From: Pyropia yezoensis | Taxonomy: Eukaryota; Rhodophyta; Bangiophyceae; Bangiales; Bangiaceae | Direction of reading: 5' to 3' | Length of the DNA: 64,000 bases | Assembly (NCBI GenBank): GCA_009829735.1 | Contig: CM020619.1 | Location: 33,086,283 to 33,150,282 of the forward strand | Shown here: piece after piece, positions 14,619 to 42,224 of the stretch | How positions within the stretch are numbered: the stretch's first letter is position 1 | Layout: each line of letters opens with the position of its first letter | Translations under genes and position numbers: made by a program | Notes under the pieces: model-generated | What the model was told of the DNA's origin: nothing | Database searches by the model: none | The model's input: only the letters and a program-made list of their open reading frames with translations

Positions 14619-17600
14619 CTATGAGCCGCCCCGGCCGCGGGAAGGGGTGCCCCCGCCCCGCCTTCCATGGCGCGGTGGTGACGATGCGGAAGGCCGCTGC
14701 GACGGCTCGATCCCCGGTGGCAGCGGGCGCGGCGGGGGGTGCACGCGCGCACCGGCCGGGAGGGCAGCCGCCCCGCCCAGCCGAGACCCCTGCGGCGCCT
14801 CTCCCGCGCCCCTTGCTGCATCCTCCCCGTCCCCCCAAATGACGATGCTGCCAAAGCTGCTGCGGCTGTCGCCTGCAGTGCCACGTACATGGCCGGTGCC
14901 CGGGTAGGGAGGGGCGCCCCACGGCTGCACGGCTGCACCTACCTCCCGGTCGGGAAAGCGACCATAGGGTGGACCCACCGGCGGGGGGACCCCCCCCCCG
15001 AGAGTGCCAGGCCCGTCATGATGCACAATAACGCTGCCGTAACTGCTGCGGCTGTCGCCGGCCCAGCCGGCTGGCAACGGCGCAGGTCCTGGCGCAGGTG
15101 CCGGCGCCACTACCGGGGAGGACGGCGGAGTAGCCAGCTCCCCACCGTCGGGCCACTGGTCGGTGCGGGGGCCACCAAAAGGGCCCCCGCTGCCCACAGG
15201 CGCAGTCACAGACCGGCGGAGGGGGTGGGTAGTGGGCTCCTCGGCGGGCGGCGGCGGTGGCGGGTCTTCCTCGTCATACTCAGCCGCCTCATCAATGACC
15301 GTATGCAGCAGCGGCGCCGTATCGCCGAGGCCACGACTGCCAGAGGCGCCACCAGAGGTGCGTCCACGGCCAGAAGCGCTGCCACCACGACCGACGGCAC
15401 CGAGGGCCTGGCGCCGCCCCGGCACGCGCAGCGGGAACAGGCGGCCGACAGGTTCCTGGAGCTTCCGAAGGAGGTCGCCCATGTTGGGCAGTGGTGCGAG
15501 CGGCTCAAGGTCGTCAAACGTCGACGACGACATGCGGGTGTGGGAGGTCGGCGCCATGACACTGACCGTCCGCCGCACTTCGTCTATGCCCGCTGACGAA
15601 TCCCCAGGGCCCCCAAAGCTGCGACTCCGAGGCAACCGCCGGGGGCCCGCCGCCAAAGGCGACGGGAACGGGTCCGCCTCGAGGTCATCCGTGGAAAAGA
15701 GATCCTCGCTGGCCGCCATCTCCGCAATCGAGCGGAATGGGGAGGTTGCAGAAGGACCGCCGCGGGGATTGGAACCAGCACCACCAGTAGCGGCGATGGC
15801 GCTGCCGCCATTGCCATCGGGGGTCGGGAGGTCGGCTTCCGCGTCGGCGAGCGCCTTGGCAAAGGAGTCTCCTCCGTCTTCGGCGCCCCATCCCCAGCTG
15901 TCCCCTGCCGACGCGCCTGGCGAGATGTCACTGTCTGCGCCCACACTCGTGTGAGAGGCGGCGTCAAAGTTCAGGCTCATGGAGCTCTTGAAAGTGCTAA
16001 GCCCACCGTGCGGCAGATACACATAGCTCAGGTCCTGGAAGAGATTCACAAATGGCTCAAACAGGAGGCCTTGGACGCCGAGCGAGAAGAGCACGAGCGT
16101 AAAGGTCATCAAGAAGATGACCTGCCCAGGGCTGAGGTGCCCCGGCAAAGCGTGTTGCACGAACGCGTCGGGCACGCCGAGCGCCAGTGCGATGCTAATA
16201 CCACCGCGCATGCCACCCCAAGTGAGGACGCCAATCGTGCCACCACGGTACCGAACCGCCCTGTGGCGAAGGCGGAGCTTGGTTACTGTCTCAATGGCAA
16301 CAATCGCAAGCAGCGGGGTGGCGACAGAAACAGCGCGGGCAAACAGCGAGATACACACAGTCGCCGCCACGATCGCAGTCGTCGGTACCACGCCAATATC
16401 CTGCGGCCGCCAAAAGAGGTCCGCAGCTCCGATTAAAAGGAAGAGCACCGAGTTGAGGGTCTCGTCGAGAAAGGACCACAGTTGGTGGAATAGCGCACTG
16501 CTCGTGTCCGTCATCGCGTCGGCCACACCGTAGTTGCCAATCAGCAGGCCAGCAACGACACTGGCCAGCGGGATAGAGGCGTGAAAGTAGCTGCATGCGA
16601 GGTTGATGTTCGATACGAGAACGATTGTGATGGTTACCTCGAGCAGCGAGTCGTCGACCGTCAGCATCGCCGAGTAGGCGGCAAACGACAAAATCCCTCC
16701 AATGACGATACCCGTCGCGCATTCAAGGGCAAAGCCGCGCGCGAAGATTCTGAGTACGTCGAGGACGGGCATGTCAGGCTTCTCAACCGTCTCCAAAAAA
16801 CCCAAAAACAGGACCACACCAACCGCGTCGTTAAACAGAGATTCACCCAGTACAAAGTAGCGGGTGGATTGGGGGATCAGGTTGGGTTTGTCATTGAGGA
16901 TGGCCACCACGGCCACGGGGTCTGTGGGAGATACAATAGACCCGAAAAGTAGGCACCACATAAAGTCCATGGGCGCAATTCGCAGCAGCAGCAGATACGT
17001 AAGGCTCGCCACGAGGAGTGTTGAGATGGCCGTGCTGAAAAAGTGCAAAGGAAGACGGGCGCATTGGAAGCAGATGGTGACCGCGAAAAGTGCAGCACAA
17101 AGAAACCACGCAGGCGACGTCAGAAACAGCGCAGAGAGCGCATTGCATAGGCACATCACGTGCATGAGCACCACTCACCTTCTCCCACAGCAGCCGTACC
17201 CCCACACACGAAGCCAAACATACCTAAAAACCGACAGCGCAAACACTGTGGTTCGAATGCGCGACAGCGCGCGGAGGTCCACCTCAATGGCAGCGGCAAA
17301 GAGCAAAAACCCCAGCATGTAGTTCAGCAGAAGGTCGGGAAAATTCATGAGGAAGTTCTTCAGCCCGTCGAGGGCGGCCGACACGCCCTCACCAGGCGTT
17401 GGCGGCCGCACATACGAGATAGCAAGCAGCACAGACGTGGACGCAACGGCTGCAATCGACATGAAGATGCTCGTTGGCACACTGCGGAACCAGTGGTGCT
17501 TGATGAGCCGGAAAACCACCGTCAGCGTCAGCAGCAGCATCACCGTGTCACCGGTGCGCAGGTGGAAGGCGTGCTCCGCTGCTTCCTTGACGCCCGCCGC

Positions 17601-23256: not shown

Positions 23257-25152
23257 TCAGCGGCGTCCCTGCCCCGCCAGTGCCACCTCTGCCTCTGCCG
23301 CCACCCCAGACTCTGCCTTGACGACCGACGCACCCGCTATGGTCGCCGTCGCTCCCGTCGCTGCCGCCGCGGGCGCCGCCCCCCCACCCGCCCACCCCAA
23401 CTCCCGCCGCAGCGCGCCCACAATCGCGTCACAGTCGCCAAGCGCCACATAGTCAAACGCCCCCCCCGGCGGCACCACGGGCGTGCGGTTCAGGAGCACC
23501 CGCGGCACGCCCGCGGGGAAGCGGGCGGGGAGGGTGGAGACGGGCGCCACCGCCAGGGAGGTGCCCACAACGAGCACCAAGTCCGCCGCCCCGGGCCGCA
23601 CGTCCGCCGCCACGCAGGTGGCCACGGCGGGGGGGAGGGGCTCCCCAAAGAGCACAATGTCGGGCTTCATCACCCCGACCGCGTCGCCATCCGAGGCGCC
23701 CCCGGAGCCGTCACTGTCGTCGCTGTCGCAGGGGCGATAGCGGCGGCGGCCGCGGCCGCGGCCGCGACCGCGGCCGCGACCGCGACCGCGACCGCGCCGT
23801 GGCGGTGGCCGCCGCGGTGGCGGCCGCGGCGCGCGGGGCGCCCCCGCCGCACAGGCGGTGCAGCGGGGCACCCGCCCCGCGCGCACCGCCGGCGCGATGG
23901 CCGCCCCCCCCACCGTCACCCCGCAGCGGGTGCACGTGGCAGTCGCGATGCTGCCGTGGACGGGGACGACGACCGGGCCGACGCCCGCCGCCGCCTCGAG
24001 GCCGTCAATGTTTTGGGTGTAGACCCGCCGGAGCACCCCGCGGTCGGACAGCTCCCGGAAGAAGGCGTGGGTGGCCGTCGGGAGGACGGCTGACTCGGGC
24101 GCGACGAGGCGGGCGGCGGCGGCAAAGAAGGGGGCGGGGTCCTCCCGGAAGGCGTCAATGTGAAAGACCGCCGCCGGGTCGGCCACCGTCGCGCCGAGCG
24201 CGGCGTACAGGCCGTTGGGGGAACGAAAGTCGGGGAGCCCCGCCGACACGGAGATGCCCGCGCCCGCCACCACCACAATGCGGGTGGCAGACCCGACGAG
24301 GCGGGCAATGGTGGCCACGCTGGGGGGGGGGGGGCCGGGAAGGGGGGCGGAGACCACCCGCCCGTCGTCGGCAGCAACGCCCACAGGGTCAGGGCAGTAG
24401 ACGCGTATGCCAGAAGGGGCGGAGACGGGAAGCACCGCCGCCGCCGCCGACGCCGCCGCCGCCGCCGCGGCACTCCCTTCAGCGGTGGCCGCAGACCAAG
24501 GTGCCACCGGGGAGTTACCGCCCGTAGCGGCGGGCGCCCCCCCCACCCCATGCCCCCCCGCAGCAGCCGCCACCGCCGCCGCCACTGCCGCCGCCGCCGC
24601 CACCCCTGCGACCCCAACGCCGTGCGTCTTGAGGGGGCGGCCGACGGCGGGGGGCACCCCCCCCCACCTCGCGTCCCCACCCCCCTCCCGTCCAACCCCG
24701 GCCCCCAGTGGCGACAATGCCGCCGGTGACGGTGACAGCGGCGGCGGCGGCGACCGCAGCCCCCCGGCGGCTCGGCTGCCCGCAGGTAGTCGTGCGGCGG
24801 CGGCGCGTGCCGACGGCGGCCGGCGCGGTGGCGCGGCGACGGCTGCCGCTGCCACCGCCGCCGTCGACGGGCCTCTTGTCGGTGACGCGGCGGGCGGCGG
24901 CGCCACGCCTGCCGCCGCCGGGCTTGACTGCCGCCGCCGTTTTGCCGGCGGCGATGTGGGCGGCGGCAGCCGAGGCGATGATGATGGCGGCGGTGGAGGC
25001 GGCAATGACGGCGGCGATGACGGCGGCGGCGGAGGCGGCGATGACGGCGCCGGCGGCGGCGGAGGCGGCGACGGCGGCGGGGGTGGTAGCGGCGGCGGCG
25101 CCGCGATGGCGGCATCGGCCGCCGCCACGTCGGCGGCGGTGGTGGTCATCAT
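23257..25152 (-). CDS. Sir2-family NAD-dependent protein deacylase
   Basis: 631 aa from the ATG at 25152. The first ~270 residues are Pro/Ala-rich low complexity with a PPAKRRRQ nuclear-localisation-like motif. The catalytic core has every sirtuin hallmark in order: GAGISVSAGLPDFRS (~295, NAD binding), YTQNIDGLE (~377), VPVHGS with the catalytic His (~398), zinc ligands CTRC (~405) and CTAC (~430), KPDIVLFGE (~497), GTSLAVAP (~530) and LLNRTP (~553). It should deacylate lysines using NAD+. It is odd that an (RG)n tract encoded by alternating CCGCGG/CCGCGA (~440-470) and an acidic SDDSDGS segment are inserted between the zinc module and KPDIV. RG repeats usually bind RNA or are methylated. The type I core and KRRR motif suggest a nuclear enzyme. 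Confidence 0.93.
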   Translation of the reverse strand: MMTTTAADVAAADAAIAAPPPLPPPPPSPPPPPPAPSSPPPPPPSSPPSLPPPPPPSSSPRLPPPTSPPAKRRRQSSPAAAGVAPPPAASPTRGPSTAAVAAAAVAAPPRRPPSARAAAARLPAGSRAAGGLRSPPPPLSPSPAALSPLGAGVGREGGGDARWGGVPPAVGRPLKTHGVGVAGVAAAAAVAAAVAAAAGGHGVGGAPAATGGNSPVAPWSAATAEGSAAAAAAASAAAAVLPVSAPSGIRVYCPDPVGVAADDGRVVSAPLPGPPPPSVATIARLVGSATRIVVVAGAGISVSAGLPDFRSPNGLYAALGATVADPAAVFHIDAFREDPAPFFAAAARLVAPESAVLPTATHAFFRELSDRGVLRRVYTQNIDGLEAAAGVGPVVVPVHGSIATATCTRCGVTVGGAAIAPAVRAGRVPRCTACAAGAPRAPRPPPRRPPPRRGRGRGRGRGRGRGRGRRRYRPCDSDDSDGSGGASDGDAVGVMKPDIVLFGEPLPPAVATCVAADVRPGAADLVLVVGTSLAVAPVSTLPARFPAGVPRVLLNRTPVVPPGGAFDYVALGDCDAIVGALRRELGWAGGGAAPAAAATGATATIAGASVVKAESGVAAEAEVALAGQGRR

Positions 25153-26479
25153 TAGTGGGCGGGGGTGAGAGGAAGGCGGGGGGGGGGTGGCGTTCTCTGG
25201 CTGACCAGGCGGCGGCGGCAGCAATGAAGGAGGCTGGCGGGCGCGCGGGCGCGCGGGCGGTACAGCCAGTGGCAGCGGCTACCGGCAGACGTCCCGTTTC
25301 GGGGGTCGGCGAGCGAGCTGCAGCAGCGGGGCAGCCAGCCGCCCGCGGAGGGGAGCGGGAAGAGGGGCGGCGACCCGCCAGTGGTGATACACACGCTGCC
25401 GACAAGGGAGGTGGCGGCGGAAGAGGGGGTTTGGCACGGCGGCAGAGGTGGCCGGCCGGCGTGGACGAGCGTGGCCAAGAGCACCGGGCGCCCTGCCGTG
25501 CGGTGGCGTGTCTGTTGAGGAGCAGTCACCAAATCTATGGATGGGTGGTTGTTGGCTGATGGGATTGCGGAACAGTTGTGGGTTGGTGTCGCCCCTGACC
25601 TGCCACAATGACATTTTCAACACCTTTTTTGTTGGCGGCCATCAACTTTGTTGCTGGCTCGCCTCGCCACACCACACCAGCGATACTGCACATGGTATGT
25701 GCCTACGTACGCCTCCCCAGTCAGTCCGTCCACGGCGAGGGAGCGCACAGGACCAGCTACCAATACGCGCGCGCGCAACGGCGGAGCGGTCAGGGTACGT
25801 GCGCGCCATGGGCCCCACACCCGAGCGCCGCGTACGCCTCTCCCGCCGTGGCCGCCAGCGACGCGCCCGTCGACCTCGAAACTCTCGTACGCCCATTCCC
25901 GCAGCGTACCCCACCCGCACGCGCTGCCGCCGTTGGCCAATCGGAAGGTTGTTCGTCCCCTGCCGACTTCGCGCCGTGGCCGCCGCCGCGGCGGGCGTTG
26001 GAGTCGCGCCCCCCAGACCGAGTGCGGGGCTAGAGCGCCTGCCCCTCGGGGAAGAGCAGAGTCAAGTGGGGGATGGTAAGGAACAGTCGGGCTAGGCAAA
26101 CAACGGCAGTGCGCGGTTTTGTCAACAGGACGCGCGGTCTTGGCGGGGAAGCGGAGCGACAAGGTATGCGCAAGGAAGAAAACACGACCAAGCGGCGGGA
26201 TGAACGCTCCCGATGAGTTAGTCGCTGATTAGCTCCCGTGAAAGTGGTGGTCGACAGGCGTCCCCACTGCAGAGGCCGTGCTCTGACCTTGAGTGGACGG
26301 GTTGGGGGCCCGCCCGCCATGCCCCGCGGGAGCAGTATCACGTTTGAAGCCCGACAACAGTCCATTTGCGGACAGCTCGTCTTCTTTGTCCCTCGGGTGC
26401 CTTCGCATGCTCGCAGACTGCGGCGAGGGACGGCCCAGCTCACGGCGCTTCACGCAGTGTGCCGCCAAGGAAGGCTAAA
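25153..26479. other. intergenic region upstream of the sirtuin
   Basis: Probably contains the sirtuin promoter near 25153-25600. A minus frame at 25617-26162 has propeller-like wording (VRSLAVDGLTGEAYVGT) but no ATG start and no continuation, so I leave it as an unsupported fragment. Confidence 0.3.
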
Positions 26480-26662: not shown

Positions 26663-26711
26663 CAGCAACGCTCTATCCGGTCGATCATGCTACATAGACA
26701 CTAAAATGCTT

Positions 26712-26805
26712 CGCGTCCTGCAGGACTTTCGCTTCTATTCGAACCTGCGCGGGATGAACCCAACAGATTTCGAATCTGTCGCCTTAACCGCTCGGCCAAA
26801 GACGC
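26712..26805 (-). tRNA. tRNA-Ser(CGA) with a 12-nt T-loop insertion
   Basis: Reading from 26805: acceptor GCGTCTT, TG, D arm GCC...GGC, anticodon stem ACAGA/TCTGT with loop TTCGAAA (anticodon CGA), a long variable arm GGG-TTCAT-CCC as in class II tRNA-Ser, T stem GCAGG, T loop TTCGAA, 12 extra bases, T60, CCTGC, acceptor AGGACGC and discriminator G. All stems close (one G-T pair). Removing 12 bases leaves 82 nt, the usual tRNA-Ser length. The insertion is best placed at 26726-26737 (between positions 59 and 60): TTCG of the T loop pairs with CGAA in the insertion and the 3' side has a 3-nt bulge AGT before the T stem, as in bulge-helix-bulge introns. A TTTT Pol III terminator follows at 26706-26703. 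Confidence 0.85.
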
Positions 26806-30404: not shown

Positions 30405-32552
30405 GGACGCGCGTCGAAGAAACGCGTCTAAAACTTCAGGGGCGTTCACAAGGTCTTGCTTTGTCAGCCAAGAGTTCTCGCTGATGTCGCAGCCTTTCCA
30501 TTTGACGAGGTACTGCAGTCGTCCACGGCGCTTTCGTGACCGTATAATGGAGTCCACTTCATACTCGACCGAGCCATCCGGAAATGTAACCGGGGGTGGA
30601 ACGGGAGGAAGTCGACCATACGGATCAGCGCGGTACGGCTTCAGGAGGCTGGCATGGAAGGCGTTGTGAACTTTGCGATCGAGGACAGCTTGAGGAAGAT
30701 CGAGACGGAACGTGACGTCATTGATGCTCTCCGTGACTTTGTAGGGTCCGGAGTATTTGGGCATCAGCTTACAAGCGCCTTGAAAAGCGTCGGGCAAGAG
30801 GTTCTTGGTGCTGAGGAGTACGTGGTCGCCCACAGCGATTGTGCATGGTCGGCGATGACGGTTTGCGTACGCCGCGCGCGTCTCATTGGCGCTCTTGATG
30901 GCGGCGATAGCCGTCTTTTGAGCATCGTGGAGGCTGGATAGCCAATCCGACACAGCAGGAAGATTTGAGTCCCTGCTGTCGAGGATGTCCATAGGCACGG
31001 TCCTTGGTTCAAACCCGTAGTTCAAGAAAAATGGAGAGTACGTGGTTACGGCATTAGGTGACCGGTTGTACGCAACTTCCGCGCCAACGAGAAAAAGATC
31101 CCAGTCGCCTTGATGGTGGTTGACGAAGTTTCTGAGGATTTCTTCAATTTTCTTGTTCATAATCTCAGTTTGGCCGTCCGTCTGCGGGTGGTAGGCCGAT
31201 GAGGCTTTGATCTTGACCTTGAGGATCTTTGTCAGTGACCGCCAGAAGTTGGAGAAAAAGATGGGGTCGCGGTCACAGACGACTTCTTGAGGTAGGCCGT
31301 GGTTGCGATAGACGTGATCGTGGTAAAGCTGAGCTGTGACCGGCGCTGTACATTCCGGCTTCATTGGTGCCAGGCGAATCATCTTTGTGAGTCGGTCAAC
31401 AACGACATAAATGCCGTTGTGGCCTCGTGGTGTCAGTGGCAGTGGGGTGATAAAGTCCATGGAGACACTTGCCCATCTTTGGCTTGGGGGTTCAAGTGGT
31501 TTGAGATGACCCAGAGGTGAATGAGTGCTAGCCTTGTTCCGCTGGCACGAATCACATGATTGTACGTATCTTTGGATGTCCTGCCGCATAGATTTCCAGT
31601 AGTAATTGGAAGCAACGGCCTTGGTGGTTTTCTTCACTCCCATGTGCCCTTGGCACGGGACGTCATGGTAGTCGTGGAGGAGTCTTTGACGTAGAGTACC
31701 AGCGGGGATGCACGTACGGTCACCTCGCTTCAACAACCTCATATGAAACCGGTAGGGAGATACCGGGTCCTTGGCTAGGTCGGCAAATTCGGGGTCCGCT
31801 TTGTACTTTTGTTCTAGGGTGGCAAGGTCTTGATCACTTTGGTTGATGGTCATGAGGTTGTTGATTTCAGTTTTCTTGAGGGTTTCGTCAATGGTCTTGG
31901 TCAGCACGCGACTAAGGAGATCTTGGTTGGGTTCGTGCTTGTCAGGGGCATCTTGGGGTTGCCTGGAAAGGGCATCAGCTACGGCGTTGGAGATGCCTTT
32001 GATCGGGACAATCTTGAACTGGAATTGGTCCAGAAGTTCAAGCCACTTGACTTGGCGGTCGTTCAGCCTTTCTTGGGTTCGCAGGTATCTCAGGGACTCG
32101 TGGTCGGTATGGACCTCAAAGGGTCTTCCGTGGAGGTAGCAGCGCCAGTGCCGGATGGCTTGGACCACTGCGAGCAGCTCACGTTCGCGGATGCTGTAGC
32201 GTTGTTCGTGGATATTCAAAGTCAGGGAGAAGAATGCCACTGGACGCCGTCCCTTTCCGTCGTCTTGTTCGAGGACTGCGCCAATAGCATACCCGCTGGC
32301 ATCAGTAGACACGTAGATGGGATATCGTTTGTCAAACGGCCTTAGTACCGGTGCACTTGTTGTCAGAGTCCGCAGCTGCTCGAAGGCTTTTTGGGCGTCC
32401 GGCGTCCACTCAAAGTCGACCTTCCCCGTCAGCCTCGTAAGAGGGGTAGCAACTGCGGCCATTCCCTTGATAAATCGGCGATAGAAGTTGACCATACCGA
32501 GGAAGGACTGCACGTCCTTCTTGCTCTTGGGGGTTGCCCACGTCCGAATGGC
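30402..32552 (-). CDS. chromovirus pol, second part: RT end, RNase H, integrase, chromodomain
   Basis: It continues the reading frame of the first pol part after an in-frame TAA at 32553-32555. It starts with the end of the RT connection (SFLGMVNFYRRF), then RNase H (VSTDASGYAIGAVL, the HTDHESLRYL block). The integrase has a HHCC zinc region (LLHDYHDVPCQGHMG... CDSCQRNK), a DDE core with SMDFITPLP and CDRDPIFFSNFW, and a GPY-like region (YSGPYKV). The last ~60 residues form a chromodomain (YEVDSIIRSRKRRGRLQYL, VKWKG, ENSW), which directs integration to chromatin marks. It would be made only if the stop is read through or is a sequence error. Confidence 0.92.
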   Translation of the reverse strand, partial: AIRTWATPKSKKDVQSFLGMVNFYRRFIKGMAAVATPLTRLTGKVDFEWTPDAQKAFEQLRTLTTSAPVLRPFDKRYPIYVSTDASGYAIGAVLEQDDGKGRRPVAFFSLTLNIHEQRYSIRERELLAVVQAIRHWRCYLHGRPFEVHTDHESLRYLRTQERLNDRQVKWLELLDQFQFKIVPIKGISNAVADALSRQPQDAPDKHEPNQDLLSRVLTKTIDETLKKTEINNLMTINQSDQDLATLEQKYKADPEFADLAKDPVSPYRFHMRLLKRGDRTCIPAGTLRQRLLHDYHDVPCQGHMGVKKTTKAVASNYYWKSMRQDIQRYVQSCDSCQRNKASTHSPLGHLKPLEPPSQRWASVSMDFITPLPLTPRGHNGIYVVVDRLTKMIRLAPMKPECTAPVTAQLYHDHVYRNHGLPQEVVCDRDPIFFSNFWRSLTKILKVKIKASSAYHPQTDGQTEIMNKKIEEILRNFVNHHQGDWDLFLVGAEVAYNRSPNAVTTYSPFFLNYGFEPRTVPMDILDSRDSNLPAVSDWLSSLHDAQKTAIAAIKSANETRAAYANRHRRPCTIAVGDHVLLSTKNLLPDAFQGACKLMPKYSGPYKVTESINDVTFRLDLPQAVLDRKVHNAFHASLLKPYRADPYGRLPPVPPPVTFPDGSVEYEVDSIIRSRKRRGRLQYLVKWKGCDISENSWLTKQDLVNAPEVLDAFLRRAS

Positions 32553-33932
32553 TTAGACCTTCTGGTCCTCCATGGAAAAGCCTGCGTCAGATATGACGTG
32601 GCCGAGGTAATCGACAGTGGTTCGAGCGAATTGGCACTTACTCGCCTTGGCGTAAAGCTTGTGGTCTCGTAGCTTGGCCAGGGTTTTTCTCAGGTGCTTG
32701 AGATGATCCTCGTAGGTTTCGCTGTAGACCAAAATGTCGTCTAAGTAGACGCAGATGAAGTCGTACAGGTAGGGTCTGAACACATCGTTCATCAAGTTCA
32801 TGAAGACTGCGGGGGCGTTCGTCAGTCCGAAGGGTAGCACAGTAAACTCGTAGAATCCATACTTGGTCCGGAACGCCGTCAATGGGATGGTGTCAGGGTC
32901 CAGCCGGATCTGGTGGTAGCCAGAGCGGAGGTCAATCTTCGTGAAATACTTGGCCTTTCGTAGTTGATCAAAGATGTCATCGTTACGTGGTAGAGGATAC
33001 GCATTCTTGATGGTGGCCTTGTTCAATGCTCGGTAGTCGATGCACATCCGCCAGCCGCCGTCCTTCTTCGCCGCAAATAGAACGGAGGAGCCCCACGGTG
33101 AGGCACTTGGCTGGATGAATCCCTTCCGAATCAGGGTCGCAAGTTGCGTCTTGAGTTCATCGAGTTCCCACTCGGAGAGGCGGTAAATACCGCTGCGACG
33201 TGGTTCAACGTCGTCGGTCAGCTTGATGCTAAACTTTTGACTACGCTCGGGAGGGAGTCCGTCCGGGAGCTCAGCCGGGAAGACGTCAGCGTACTCCTTG
33301 AGAATCTGTTGGACTTCATTTTTGTCTTCAGCTTCTCCCATAATGATGGAGTTGATGTCAAAGCTGCTTGAGGGGTCTTCAGACTGCAGGTAGATGGCGA
33401 ATACAGGGGTCCTTTGGATGAGGTCACGTGCGAGTCGTTGCCGGCTAATGAGGCCCTCCGGTTTCTTGAGGGAGGCGGTGATAGAAATATTCTTGTGGTT
33501 GAACTTAAAGGATATCTTGTTCTTCTTGTTGTTGATCTTGGCGCCCTTGTCATCGCGCCATTTCTTACCGAGGATAACGTCGTACGCACTGAGGTCGCAT
33601 ACGGCGAACCGTAGTCGTTCTTGGTAAAGGCCGATGTGAATCTCTAAGGGTTCAATGGTTTCAGCGAGTACATGGGAACGTCCATCGGGCATGTTTGCCG
33701 CGAAGTCCGTTTCAGTGGTCTTGACATTCAGGGTTTTCATGAGGCGCCTGGAGACGACGTTGATGGGAGACCCGTCGTCGAACAGCACCTTTACAACATG
33801 GCCATTGACAGAAGCAGTAGAAAGCAGTAGCCCGAGACGCGGGCCTTCAAAGGGTGACGATTTGTTTCCCGGAACCAAAGGAGCATCTTTCACCGTTGTT
33901 GACGACGGTTGCTGCTTCAGTTCCGCTGGCCA
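32553..33932 (-). CDS. chromovirus pol, first part: protease and reverse transcriptase
   Basis: The frame is -1 relative to gag and is open back to the slippery heptamer at 33932-33938. The aspartic protease comes first ([13 protein letters not shown], with D-D-G-S in place of the usual D-S/T-G), then YDVILGKKW. The reverse transcriptase has [56 protein letters not shown] and the catalytic YLDDILVYS. The frame ends at TAA (32553-32555) just after DQKV, inside the RT-RNase H connection, where the homologous protein continues without a break. This stop disables the element if real. Confidence 0.92.
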
Positions 33933-39262: not shown

Positions 39263-40357
39263 TCACTTCAGGGCGGTGCCAACTCCAACCGGTAGGGCAC
39301 GCAGCACACCTTCCAGAGGGGCTCCAGGGCCGGTGAGCTCCGGTAGGTGCCGCCACATCTCTCGCCACGCTTCCCGGTAATGGCCTTGGATGGTGGCAAG
39401 GGGAATCGAAGCGAATGATAGCTCATGGAGAAGTCGGTGGGGAAGATCAGGATGATGGTACGCAATGTTGTGCGCCTCGCGTTTGTAGTCCGCAAAGGTG
39501 GGCTCCACGGCAGACAGGTTAGGGCAGTAAGGAGGCAAGCGAAGCAAAAAGACACCGTTCATAGTGAGGATCTCATCTGCTAACGCTGTGTGTACAGAGG
39601 CATTATCATACAAAAGCACACAGTCATCTGGCTGATCGGCCCACAAAGCCCCCGGCACATACGCGTTCATACGTGTAGCCAGGCTCGTGCAAAAAAGCGC
39701 CCAGTCATCGCCAGCTTGAGCAGGGGGCACCTCGTTGACCGACAGCTCCAAAATTCCCCGAGAGTGAGAGATAGCGACAATAGAAGAAAACCGCTTGGTC
39801 GCCCTCGGATCAGGAGCCAGCGCCTCCAACGGAAAACCCACCTTGGCGCGGCCCCGAGGTCGCACCATTGCATCACCCTTAATGTGGGTTTCATCGGCAA
39901 CCACAATGCATCTGTCAGGGATGTGCCTCATCAGCCGGCATTGGTCCACCATCCGCTCCAGGCACCGTTCGCTCGCCAGCCGCTCCACCTTCTTGAATGA
40001 ATAGCCGATCTGCCGAAGCATCAGCCCCAGCGTCGTCACGCTCGTCGGCCAGCTGCGGTTCCAGTCGGGAAGCTCCTCCAGTCGTTGAAAGAGAGACGAT
40101 AGTTCACGCAAAAAAATCTCAGGGTGGGCAGTCACGAGGCTGTTCAGCGCTCGGAGAAAAGTTGCGTTAAAGCGAGCGGAGTCCGCATGCTGATTCTGAA
40201 TACAGTCATCATTCCATGGCGACCCGTTCCGCTCGAAATTCTCCCACCATTGATGGGCGGCTCTGAGTCTGCACCCGGCGTGGTCCACAATCGAATCCCA
40301 GCCCAGGCCGCGCTGGCGATTGCGCACGACCTGCCAGCGCACGGCGATAGGAAACAT
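39263..40357 (-). CDS. IS630/Tc1-mariner-type DDE transposase
   Basis: 364 aa from the ATG at 40357. The frame is open further up to 40660, but that sequence is GC-rich and not protein-like. An N-terminal helix-turn-helix region (AVRWQVVRNRQRGLGWDSIV) is followed by the catalytic core: VVADETHIKGDAM (first D), VLLYDNASVH (second D) and LPPYCPNLSAVEPTFADYK (third acid E). This is the IS630/Tc1-mariner (DDE_3) pattern for cut-and-paste transposition into TA. The ORF is intact at normal family length. I searched the flanks by eye for terminal inverted repeats and TA duplications and saw none, so the transposon ends are undefined; it could also be a domesticated copy. Confidence 0.88.
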   Translation of the reverse strand: MFPIAVRWQVVRNRQRGLGWDSIVDHAGCRLRAAHQWWENFERNGSPWNDDCIQNQHADSARFNATFLRALNSLVTAHPEIFLRELSSLFQRLEELPDWNRSWPTSVTTLGLMLRQIGYSFKKVERLASERCLERMVDQCRLMRHIPDRCIVVADETHIKGDAMVRPRGRAKVGFPLEALAPDPRATKRFSSIVAISHSRGILELSVNEVPPAQAGDDWALFCTSLATRMNAYVPGALWADQPDDCVLLYDNASVHTALADEILTMNGVFLLRLPPYCPNLSAVEPTFADYKREAHNIAYHHPDLPHRLLHELSFASIPLATIQGHYREAWREMWRHLPELTGPGAPLEGVLRALPVGVGTALK

Positions 40358-42130
40358 TGCCGAAAATAGACACGCCCCACGCCCCTCAGTGCGACCCTCC
40401 CCCCCCCCTCCCCTCAGGGTGCGACCAACGGAATCCGCGCGTGCCGAGGCCCCGCCCCGACCACCCGAGGCTCCGCGCGCCCCAAGCCGAAAAAGACGTC
40501 CACGTCGTCGCGGCCACCACGCGAGTGGCACACCCCCCAGATGGTGTCTCCTCGACGGTGAGGATCGGCCGCATGGACACCGTGTGTCGCGTCGGCCTTG
40601 GTGGGACGCACCACGCCCAGTGCCCACCACCACTGTGCTCCGGCGGCCTCTGCCGGTCACTCACTGGTCGAAGAGCCATGCAAGACGCTGGTCGCGAACG
40701 ATGGTTGGTTGACAATCTGTGCGCTCACACAGCGGGCGGAACACCCTCTCAGCCGCAACAGTAGAATTTTCGTCAGATACGAACGCAGCCGCGCCGCGTC
40801 GCGGCTTCCTATTGGACAGTTCCGATATTGGTGGTAAATTAGAGACAACCAGCCGGAACAGTAAGTACATTTGTGCTTGCGCGGCAGTCGTGCGACCACC
40901 AAACCACCGCACCCCTGCCAATGCTCCCCCGATTGTGGTTGCCGCCACTGCTGCCATCAGAGGTGGCGGTGCCGGATTGTCTCGCGCTACCATCGCCAGC
41001 GGCCCCAACGAATGGGCCGGGGGAGTGGCTGAGCGACACTGGGCTGAGGCAGTCTGTGGTGGCGGATTCGCTGTGGGCCTCAACGAGGCGGTCGGGTGGA
41101 GGTCGGGTCATGGGGCTCGCAGAACTCCTCGGAGGCGGCCGGCGGCAGCCGTAATGGAGGAAATCTGGGGCGACCACGACGTTGGCAGGGGATCGGGAGC
41201 GTCAGTGGCTCAGGCCTGTCCACACAAATTTGATGGCGGACGTGCGCGACGGCCGATGAAAAATCTCATGCAATCCAGTTTGGTGCAGTGAGAGTTGTGC
41301 CAGCGATGGCACGAGCCTCACGGACGGCGTCCCGGGGGTGTGCCAACAGAATCAGATTTGCGTCGGTGGTAAATCTGCCGAAACGCTGGCAGGCCCTGAG
41401 CCGTCGGCCGTCATGAATGAGAGTCTCGACATTTGGTTGTGCATAGTTACGATTTTTTGTCACTTGAGCTCATTCCATTCGCATCGAACCGACTCGAAGC
41501 ACTGCTTCTGAGCAGGTTTTTTGTGTGCATGGGCCTCGAATGCAACCAAGTGGCCTGCTCTGTTGCGGGGGGGGCCATCTCAGCCGCAGATGCCACCGCG
41601 TTTGACACAGCGTCGGAAAGGGTCCCCAGTCGAGCGTGATGCAGGCGCTCCTTTGTGATCAGACCGACATTTTCTTGCCCTCAAAACGCCCGCGGCTGCG
41701 TGCCGGAACCAGATCTGGTAAAGTCATCTCACACAGGGGCCTTCAGAATTGTGATGTAAAAACGGGTCTTGTTTCTGTGCTGCTGATAGTATCAAGAGGA
41801 CCAATCAGAAGCCTGCAGACAAGGGCTGCAGCACTCATTCCGAGTTCAAATCTGCCATGCATGCGTTCCTTTTCGACGGATCCCGTTCATCTCCGGCATG
41901 TGCACACGTGCTGCGTCACCCGCACAATCCAAACATGTGCACTTTTTAGCGTAAGCACAGTAGGGGCTGTGGAGGGGGCGGCGTGACGGGCTGTGGGTGG
42001 GGGACCGAGGAAGAGGCCCGTCGGGGAGACGTGCGGAGTGGGAGGACAGATTGCGTTCATCACCACTGATCATCTGTCCAGCGGATGTTTGCGAGACGAG
42101 CAAATCAACATTTATCGGTACAAAACATCG
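40358..42130. other. intergenic region
   Basis: No supported gene. It contains the transposase promoter side. A plus ORF at 40719-41291 begins with GTG and has a mixed composition without motifs. 41280-41960 is AT-richer and empty. Confidence 0.35.
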
Positions 42131-42224
42131 CGCGTCCTGCAGGATAACCGGGCATGTTCGAACCTGCGCGGGATGAACCCAATAGATTTCGAGTCTATCG
42201 CCTTAACCGCTCGGCCAAAGACGC
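42131..42224 (-). tRNA. second tRNA-Ser(CGA) with a 12-nt T-loop insertion
   Basis: Reading from 42224: the same acceptor, D arm, variable arm and T stem as the gene at 26712-26805. The anticodon stem is ATAGA/TCTAT, a compensatory C-G to T-A change relative to the first copy, and the loop is CTCGAAA (anticodon CGA). The T loop TTCGAA is followed by 12 bases at 42145-42156 that are unrelated to the insertion in the first copy, then T60 and CCTGC, AGGACGC and discriminator G. Removing them leaves 82 nt. Pairing of TTCG with CGGT is weaker (three pairs), and the 3' bulge is TAT. TTTT at 42125-42122 is the Pol III terminator. The flanks are unrelated to those of the first copy. Confidence 0.85.

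Follow-up and report, generated by a model that had tools for sequence, protein, structure and literature searches.

Putative ectopic introns in the T loop of all four tRNA-Ser(CGA) gene copies found in the nuclear genome assembly of the red seaweed Pyropia yezoensis

Canonical introns of eukaryotic tRNA precursors lie in the anticodon loop, behind the sixth of its seven nucleotides. Ectopic tRNA introns of the red alga Cyanidioschyzon merolae were reportedly described by Soma et al. (2007, 2013), and Kawach et al. (2005) are said to have described tRNA introns in the nucleomorph of Guillardia theta, which is a relic nucleus of red-algal origin. Excerpts of three papers place the C. merolae introns in the D, anticodon and T arms (PMC3978253, PMC9602550, PMC4090602). 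A first-pass annotation of the present DNA likewise remarked that introns in D and T loops are known from Cyanidioschyzon and archaea. As far as these excerpts describe it, C. merolae shares with Pyropia yezoensis that both are red algae with short introns in the D, anticodon and T loops, BHB-like motifs, several introns per gene, and Sen2, Sen34 and Sen54. However, C. merolae is a unicellular alga of hot acid springs with a genome of 16.5 Mb, whereas P. yezoensis is a seaweed with an assembly of 107 Mb. The T-arm introns named in the C. merolae excerpts are at 53/54 and 55/56, whereas those of P. yezoensis tRNA-Ser(CGA) are at 59/60, a position that in C. merolae is the junction of three permuted genes (PMC3978253). 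Unlike what is described for C. merolae in the same excerpts, all four copies found of one isoacceptor are interrupted in P. yezoensis.

The Guillardia theta nucleomorph, like P. yezoensis, has non-canonical introns in the D and T arms (PMC4090602, PMC3978253). It is, however, a relic genome; according to the excerpts, many of its inserts, which measure 3-24 nt, lack a defined BHB motif, and removal was shown by RT-PCR, whereas in P. yezoensis it is predicted from DNA. Non-canonical archaeal introns have the 59/60 site and the BHB grammar in common with those reported here, but the archaeal endonuclease differs (PMC4090602, in excerpt). Canonical eukaryotic introns at 37/38 show the same geometry (5-bp stem, 7-nt loop, cut after nucleotide 6) in another arm. 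This kind of intron is therefore already known from C. merolae, the Guillardia nucleomorph and archaea, and its wide use in the nuclear genome of a seaweed was not found in print. A literature search, which covered mainly titles and the beginnings of abstracts and few subscription papers, returned nothing on ectopic introns in nuclear tRNA genes of Pyropia, of Porphyra or of any other red alga beyond the work on C. merolae and the nucleomorphs. Nor did it return a seaweed whose nuclear genome has all copies found of a single tRNA interrupted.

We analyzed a stretch of 64,000 nucleotides of P. yezoensis DNA (the 64-kb window), in which the features listed in Table 1 were located. Copy 1 of the tRNA-Ser(CGA) gene is 94 nt long with its insert and 82 nt without it, the discriminator G included. 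The Rfam tRNA model spans the gene end to end, with part of the variable arm and a stretch of the T loop aligned as insertions. When the 12 nt were removed, ARAGORN called tRNA-Ser(CGA) over positions 1-82; no tRNA was returned by ARAGORN when they were retained, and none was called in the whole window. The form lacking the insert has the cloverleaf, the long variable arm and the CGA anticodon of a class II tRNA-Ser(CGA), and an A box and a Pol III terminator accompany the gene, as judged by sequence; the names A box and B box follow the established layout of Pol III promoters. Position, Rfam match and the ARAGORN call on the spliced form uphold the first-pass description of a 12-nt T-loop insert whose removal leaves 82 nt. 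The helix of TTCG with CGAA and the AGT bulge, also described there, are present in the T arm of copy 1 and form in its minimum-energy fold. That annotation listed one gene, whose locus was confirmed; the window contains two such genes, and four were found in the assembly searched.

Table 1. Positions of tRNA-Ser(CGA) gene parts and of other features in the window.
Feature	Position	Strand	Basis or remark
tRNA-Ser(CGA) gene, copy 1 (L031)	26712..26805	-	cmscan RF00005, 49.7 bits (E 1.2e-7); ARAGORN on spliced form
Copy 1, exon 1	26738..26805	-	acceptor 5' strand, D arm, anticodon arm, variable arm, T stem 5' strand, T-loop nt 54-59
Copy 1, anticodon CGA	26770-26772	-	within exon 1
Copy 1, A box TGGCCGAGCGG	26788..26798	-	uninterrupted; sequence read
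Copy 1, B box 5' part GGTTCGAA	26738..26745	-	last bases TCC displaced by insert
Copy 1, putative 12-nt T-loop intron TAGAAGCGAAAG	26726..26737	-	at 59/60; predicted from sequence
Copy 1, intron CGAA	26728..26731	-	complementary to TTCG of the T loop (26740-26743); the 4 bp would be the central helix of the hBH motif
Copy 1, exon 2	26712..26725	-	T-loop nt 60, T stem 3' strand, acceptor 3' strand, discriminator
Copy 1, TTTT, likely Pol III terminator	26703..26706	-	5 nt past gene
tRNA-Ser(CGA) gene, copy 2 (L034)	42131..42224	-	placed by DNA search of genome
Copy 2, exon 1	42157..42224	-	sequence read, spliced-form test
Copy 2, putative intron CATGCCCGGTTA	42145..42156	-	site as in copy 1, sequence unrelated
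Copy 2, exon 2	42131..42144	-	sequence read, spliced-form test
Copy 2, TTTT, likely Pol III terminator	42122..42125	-	5 nt past gene
Frame with Na+/H+ exchanger domain	14622-17174	-	
Frame with Sir2 domain	23260-25224	-	
Ty3/gypsy-type retroelement frames (RT, RNase H, integrase, chromodomain)	30405-33893	-	between the two tRNA genes
Frame with DDE_3 endonuclease (transposase-type) domain	39266-40660	-	

A DNA search of the genome with the gene as query revealed four tRNA-Ser(CGA) loci: the two in the window, one on C1 and one on C3, the two outside the window being L032 and L033. Copy 2 lies 15.4 kb from copy 1; it was missed by ARAGORN and was matched in part by cmscan (42151-42224, 29.8 bits, with a different acceptor). 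The assembly searched comprised 107.48 Mb in 11 contigs, the three large ones being 43.59, 34.33 and 29.39 Mb. An excerpt of the published P. yezoensis genome gives scaffolds of 43.6, 34.3 and 29.4 Mbp with 65% GC, plus 524 contigs of 5.5 Mbp (PMC7423979), most of which fall outside the assembly searched. The pattern of an A box followed by a CGA anticodon loop occurred at 29 places, of which four were the tRNA genes and 25 appeared by eye to be repeat-like or due to chance. Neither the DNA search nor the pattern search of the 11-contig assembly found an uninterrupted tRNA-Ser(CGA) gene; such a gene, with the present loci silent, is what the first-pass annotation had said would refute its reading.

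The four inserts (TAGAAGCGAAAG, CATTAGACGAATG, ATTGTGTGGAAG and CATGCCCGGTTA) were 12-13 nt long and occupied one common site, each standing between TTCGAA and TCCTGC. The cut site is ambiguous by one base in copy 1 (59/60 or 60/61) and in copy 2 (58/59 or 59/60), and 59/60 is the sole site permitted in L032 and L033. In pairwise comparison, at most three of the 82 exon positions differed (range 0-3), and a single anticodon-stem pair, changed on both sides (C28-G42 to U28-A42), accounts for two of the changes. The introns aligned no better than shuffled sequences in five of six comparisons; in the sixth (L031 with L032, which have CGAA in common), 16 of 500 shuffles were as good. A conserved exon with a freely varying insert is the pattern that would be expected of selection on the spliced product. 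ARAGORN called tRNA-Ser(CGA) over [1,82] in all four spliced forms, so that removal of an insert outside 37/38 restored a standard tRNA in 4/4 genes. From the unspliced forms it called just one (L033), with a different 3' end; in its run over 34 loci, three of the four Ser(CGA) genes were missed.

A run of T4 or T5 begins 5-7 nt past each of the four genes. Flanks of up to 1400 nt per side contained no in-register match adjoining the genes; the matches present were scattered and short, the best (48 nt, 81%, E 1.7e-7) lying >1 kb off in opposite orientation. If the loci were tRNA-derived pseudogenes or SINEs in which the insert is damage, a reading that we consider highly improbable, all four copies found would have been damaged at one site while their exons, T stem and acceptor included, stayed conserved with a compensated pair. 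Moreover, the genes have no in-register flank in common, and no other Ser(CGA) gene was found for the job although TCG is used (10 of the 42 serine codons in a small sample of five matched coding segments, RtcB supplying two of the five). It is nevertheless true that tRNA-like repeats with an A box occur in this genome, that the unspliced T arm is broken and that eukaryotic tRNA copies with such inserts, when one among many synonymous genes, are usually taken as pseudogenes (PMC4090602, in excerpt). A tRNA-derived SINE or a pseudogene was rejected on the lack of a shared in-register tail or flank beside the four genes, the conserved exons and the absence of an uninterrupted copy in the searches, and a circularly permuted gene, for these four loci, on the normal order of the halves. 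Several families of tRNA-like repeats with A-box-like and B-box-like motifs, possibly SINEs, were seen in the genome (e.g., TGGCGCAGTGGTCCACAACGCC... and TGGCCGAGCGGATTCCGGCGCC...). For the related Porphyra umbilicalis, a codon study based on tRNAscan-SE defaults counts UCG among the optimal codons and names Ser(CGA) the major tRNA gene for serine (PMC10496412, in excerpt).

Site 59/60 is the place in the T loop that corresponds to the canonical site, after the sixth nucleotide of a 7-nt loop on a 5-bp stem. Pairing of loop nucleotides 54-57 with intron nucleotides n-5 to n-2 is possible at 15 of the 16 positions in the four Ser(CGA) genes, a value matched by 2 of 20,000 intron shuffles (8 of 20,000 if any of seven registers was allowed). 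Five more T-loop inserts, as read by us, were present in genes for Leu(TAA), Ser(AGA), Lys(TTT), Ile(TAT) and Val(TAC). For the nine T-loop introns together, with the junction assumed at 59/60 in L073, L090, L096 and L103, 30 of 36 pairs were possible (0/20,000 shuffles), against 10-22 of 36 in other registers. Pairs at 55 and 56 were possible in 9/9, and the outermost pair (54) held in five and failed in four (L034, L082, L090, L096). Copy 2 (L034) permits three of the four pairs, and the Lys(TTT) gene L090 just two.

The BHB or hBH motif was counted here on possible pairs at the junctions, and the minimum-energy folds agreed in a minority of cases. Isolated T arms formed the full helix in 2/9 (L031 and L032), and L082 formed its three possible pairs; for the other six, including L033 and L034, alternative pairing was predicted, and the helix was absent from the fold of copy 2. 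The alternative was better by 0.5-0.6 kcal/mol in L033 and L034 and by up to 6.7 in L073. These folds slightly lower our confidence in the splicing reading. Two of the additional loci can also be read otherwise. Rfam (39.8 bits, 73 nt) and ARAGORN both took an uninterrupted reading of Val(TAC) L103, in which 9/12 T-stem and acceptor pairs form, versus 12/12 with a 22-nt insert. L096 was read by us as Ile(TAT) with an intron at 37/38, and ARAGORN read its T-spliced form as tRNA-Ser(tga) with an intron at 36.

The ability of the insert to lengthen the T stem by a short helix would also fit a tRNA that works unspliced, its T loop of 19-20 nt folding back on itself. This seems extremely improbable, since the insert sequence varies, the related tRNA-Ser(AGA) genes were found without inserts (L017, L018) or with inserts elsewhere (in the D loop of L069, and in the anticodon loop as well as the T loop of L082), and the usual contact of the T loop with the D loop would be lost.

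We inspected 74 tRNA loci, consisting of 34 loci and 40 picked by eye, with all 43 Rfam genome matches included. This sample is partial and search-biased, as 63 of 1453 candidates were scored with the tRNA model and 100 of 168 pattern places were listed. Four loci (L074, L075, L100 and L102) were set aside as degenerate-looking, of which L100 (52.5 bits) and L102 (43.9) pass the Rfam cut-off. By our own reading of this search-biased sample, at least one insert was present in 39 of 70 tRNA genes and none in 31. Inserts were located in the D loop of 21 genes, the anticodon loop of 13 and the T loop of nine, anticodon and T loops being interrupted together in four. Among the Val(CAC) genes, one had no insert, two had D-loop inserts and two had anticodon inserts.

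Eleven D-loop introns allow 41 of 44 pairs between exon nucleotides -6 to -3 and intron nucleotides n-5 to n-2 (0/10,000 shuffles; other registers, 19-27/44). The thirteen canonical introns of the anticodon loop gave 30 of 52 (124/10,000; other registers, 18-26), compared with the higher fractions in the T and D loops. Exon nucleotide 32 pairs with the intron in 11/13 of these, and position -5 in just 4/13. The former pair is comparable to the A-I pair of yeast introns. The weak pair thus differs between loops, being position -5 in anticodon introns (4/13) and the outermost one in T-loop introns (5/9). The D-loop inserts of Arg(TCG) and Arg(CCG) (L021, L076, L078-L081) were excluded from the motif count because no uninterrupted sibling fixes their ends. 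Rows of the helix counts are partly related, the count having taken three of six Lys(CTT) copies (L024, L028, L029) and three of four Phe(GAA) copies (L087, L095, L098).

When only introns fixed by a sibling were counted, the pairs possible were 18/20 in the T loop (2/10,000 shuffles), 18/24 in the anticodon loop (3/10,000) and 29/32 in the D loop (0/10,000). With Watson-Crick pairs only, the counts were 25/36 (0/10,000), 25/52 (11/10,000) and 30/44 (0/10,000), and with both restrictions 15/20, 15/24 and 18/32, respectively. The helix was above shuffles in T, D and anticodon introns alike. There is a hint that ectopic introns may be stricter in this helix than canonical ones, which depends on counting G-U pairs and on assumed junctions, and the gap shrinks otherwise. 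The same counts bear on whether the inserts are real introns that are removed by another nuclease and joined by another route than that of the Sen complex. Some inserts of the Guillardia nucleomorph are just 3 nt long and their route of removal is unexplained (PMC4090602, in excerpt), and the motif differs from the minimum-energy fold in 6/9 T arms. In the D and T loops, pairing nevertheless peaks at the register of Sen/EndA substrates, anticodon loops showing a less sharp peak there, and we regard a non-Sen route as very unlikely.

Both an endonuclease and a ligase are encoded in the genome. The tRNA intron endonuclease domain occurred twice; the best PDB matches were Sen34 chains for one frame (E 5.7e-15) and Sen2 for the other (E 5e-10). 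The Sen54 N-terminal domain was also present, and RtcB was encoded on C1 in two adjacent pieces. The absence of an intact copy from the assembly searched, the unrelated inserts, the helix, the other loci and these enzymes support the first-pass reading, and we consider it very probable (about 0.9) that the tRNA-Ser(CGA) inserts are genuine ectopic introns, excised by the tRNA splicing endonuclease. According to this reading, the transcript of the gene would be a precursor of tRNA-Ser(CGA) that is interrupted by an ectopic intron at 59/60 of the T loop. Its T arm, with a 5-bp stem and a 7-nt loop cut after nucleotide 6, would match in shape an anticodon arm that is cut at 37/38. Nucleotides 54-57 of the loop would form a helix with intron nucleotides n-5 to n-2, so that the two last intron nucleotides and nucleotide 60 bulge out against the T stem. 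The Sen2/Sen34/Sen54 endonuclease would cut both unpaired stretches, and RtcB, or another ligase, would join the exons. Because the B box is split by the insert, transcription would require a tolerant TFIIIC.

Eukaryotic non-canonical tRNA introns, known from a hot-spring unicell and from nucleomorphs, could pass for oddities of small genomes. Their wide occurrence in the genome of a seaweed hints at a trait that belongs to red algae as a lineage. We propose, at about even odds, that position-independent tRNA splicing is an old red-algal trait that is active in a multicellular seaweed, that the Sen rule (exon -6 to -3 with intron n-5 to n-2) applies in any loop, and that isogenes freely gain and lose introns until one isoacceptor depends wholly on ectopic splicing. 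How a eukaryotic Sen enzyme escapes the anticodon-loop ruler is a question that could be studied in P. yezoensis.

Genes of this kind can escape standard tRNA finders, as three of the four tRNA-Ser(CGA) copies escaped ARAGORN. In a tRNAscan-SE survey of eight red algae, C. merolae and C. yangmingshanensis are the only two for which tRNA-Ile is reported (PMC10496412, in excerpt), whereas we found an uninterrupted Ile(AAT) gene (L020) as well as L096, read as Ile(TAT) with two inserts; inserts may therefore hide some tRNAs from default scans. Six tRNA-Lys(CTT) genes (L024-L029) were clustered on C3 at 12.65-12.77 Mb in both orientations, all with 14-nt D-loop inserts, and an uninterrupted Lys(CTT) copy (L008) was located on C1.
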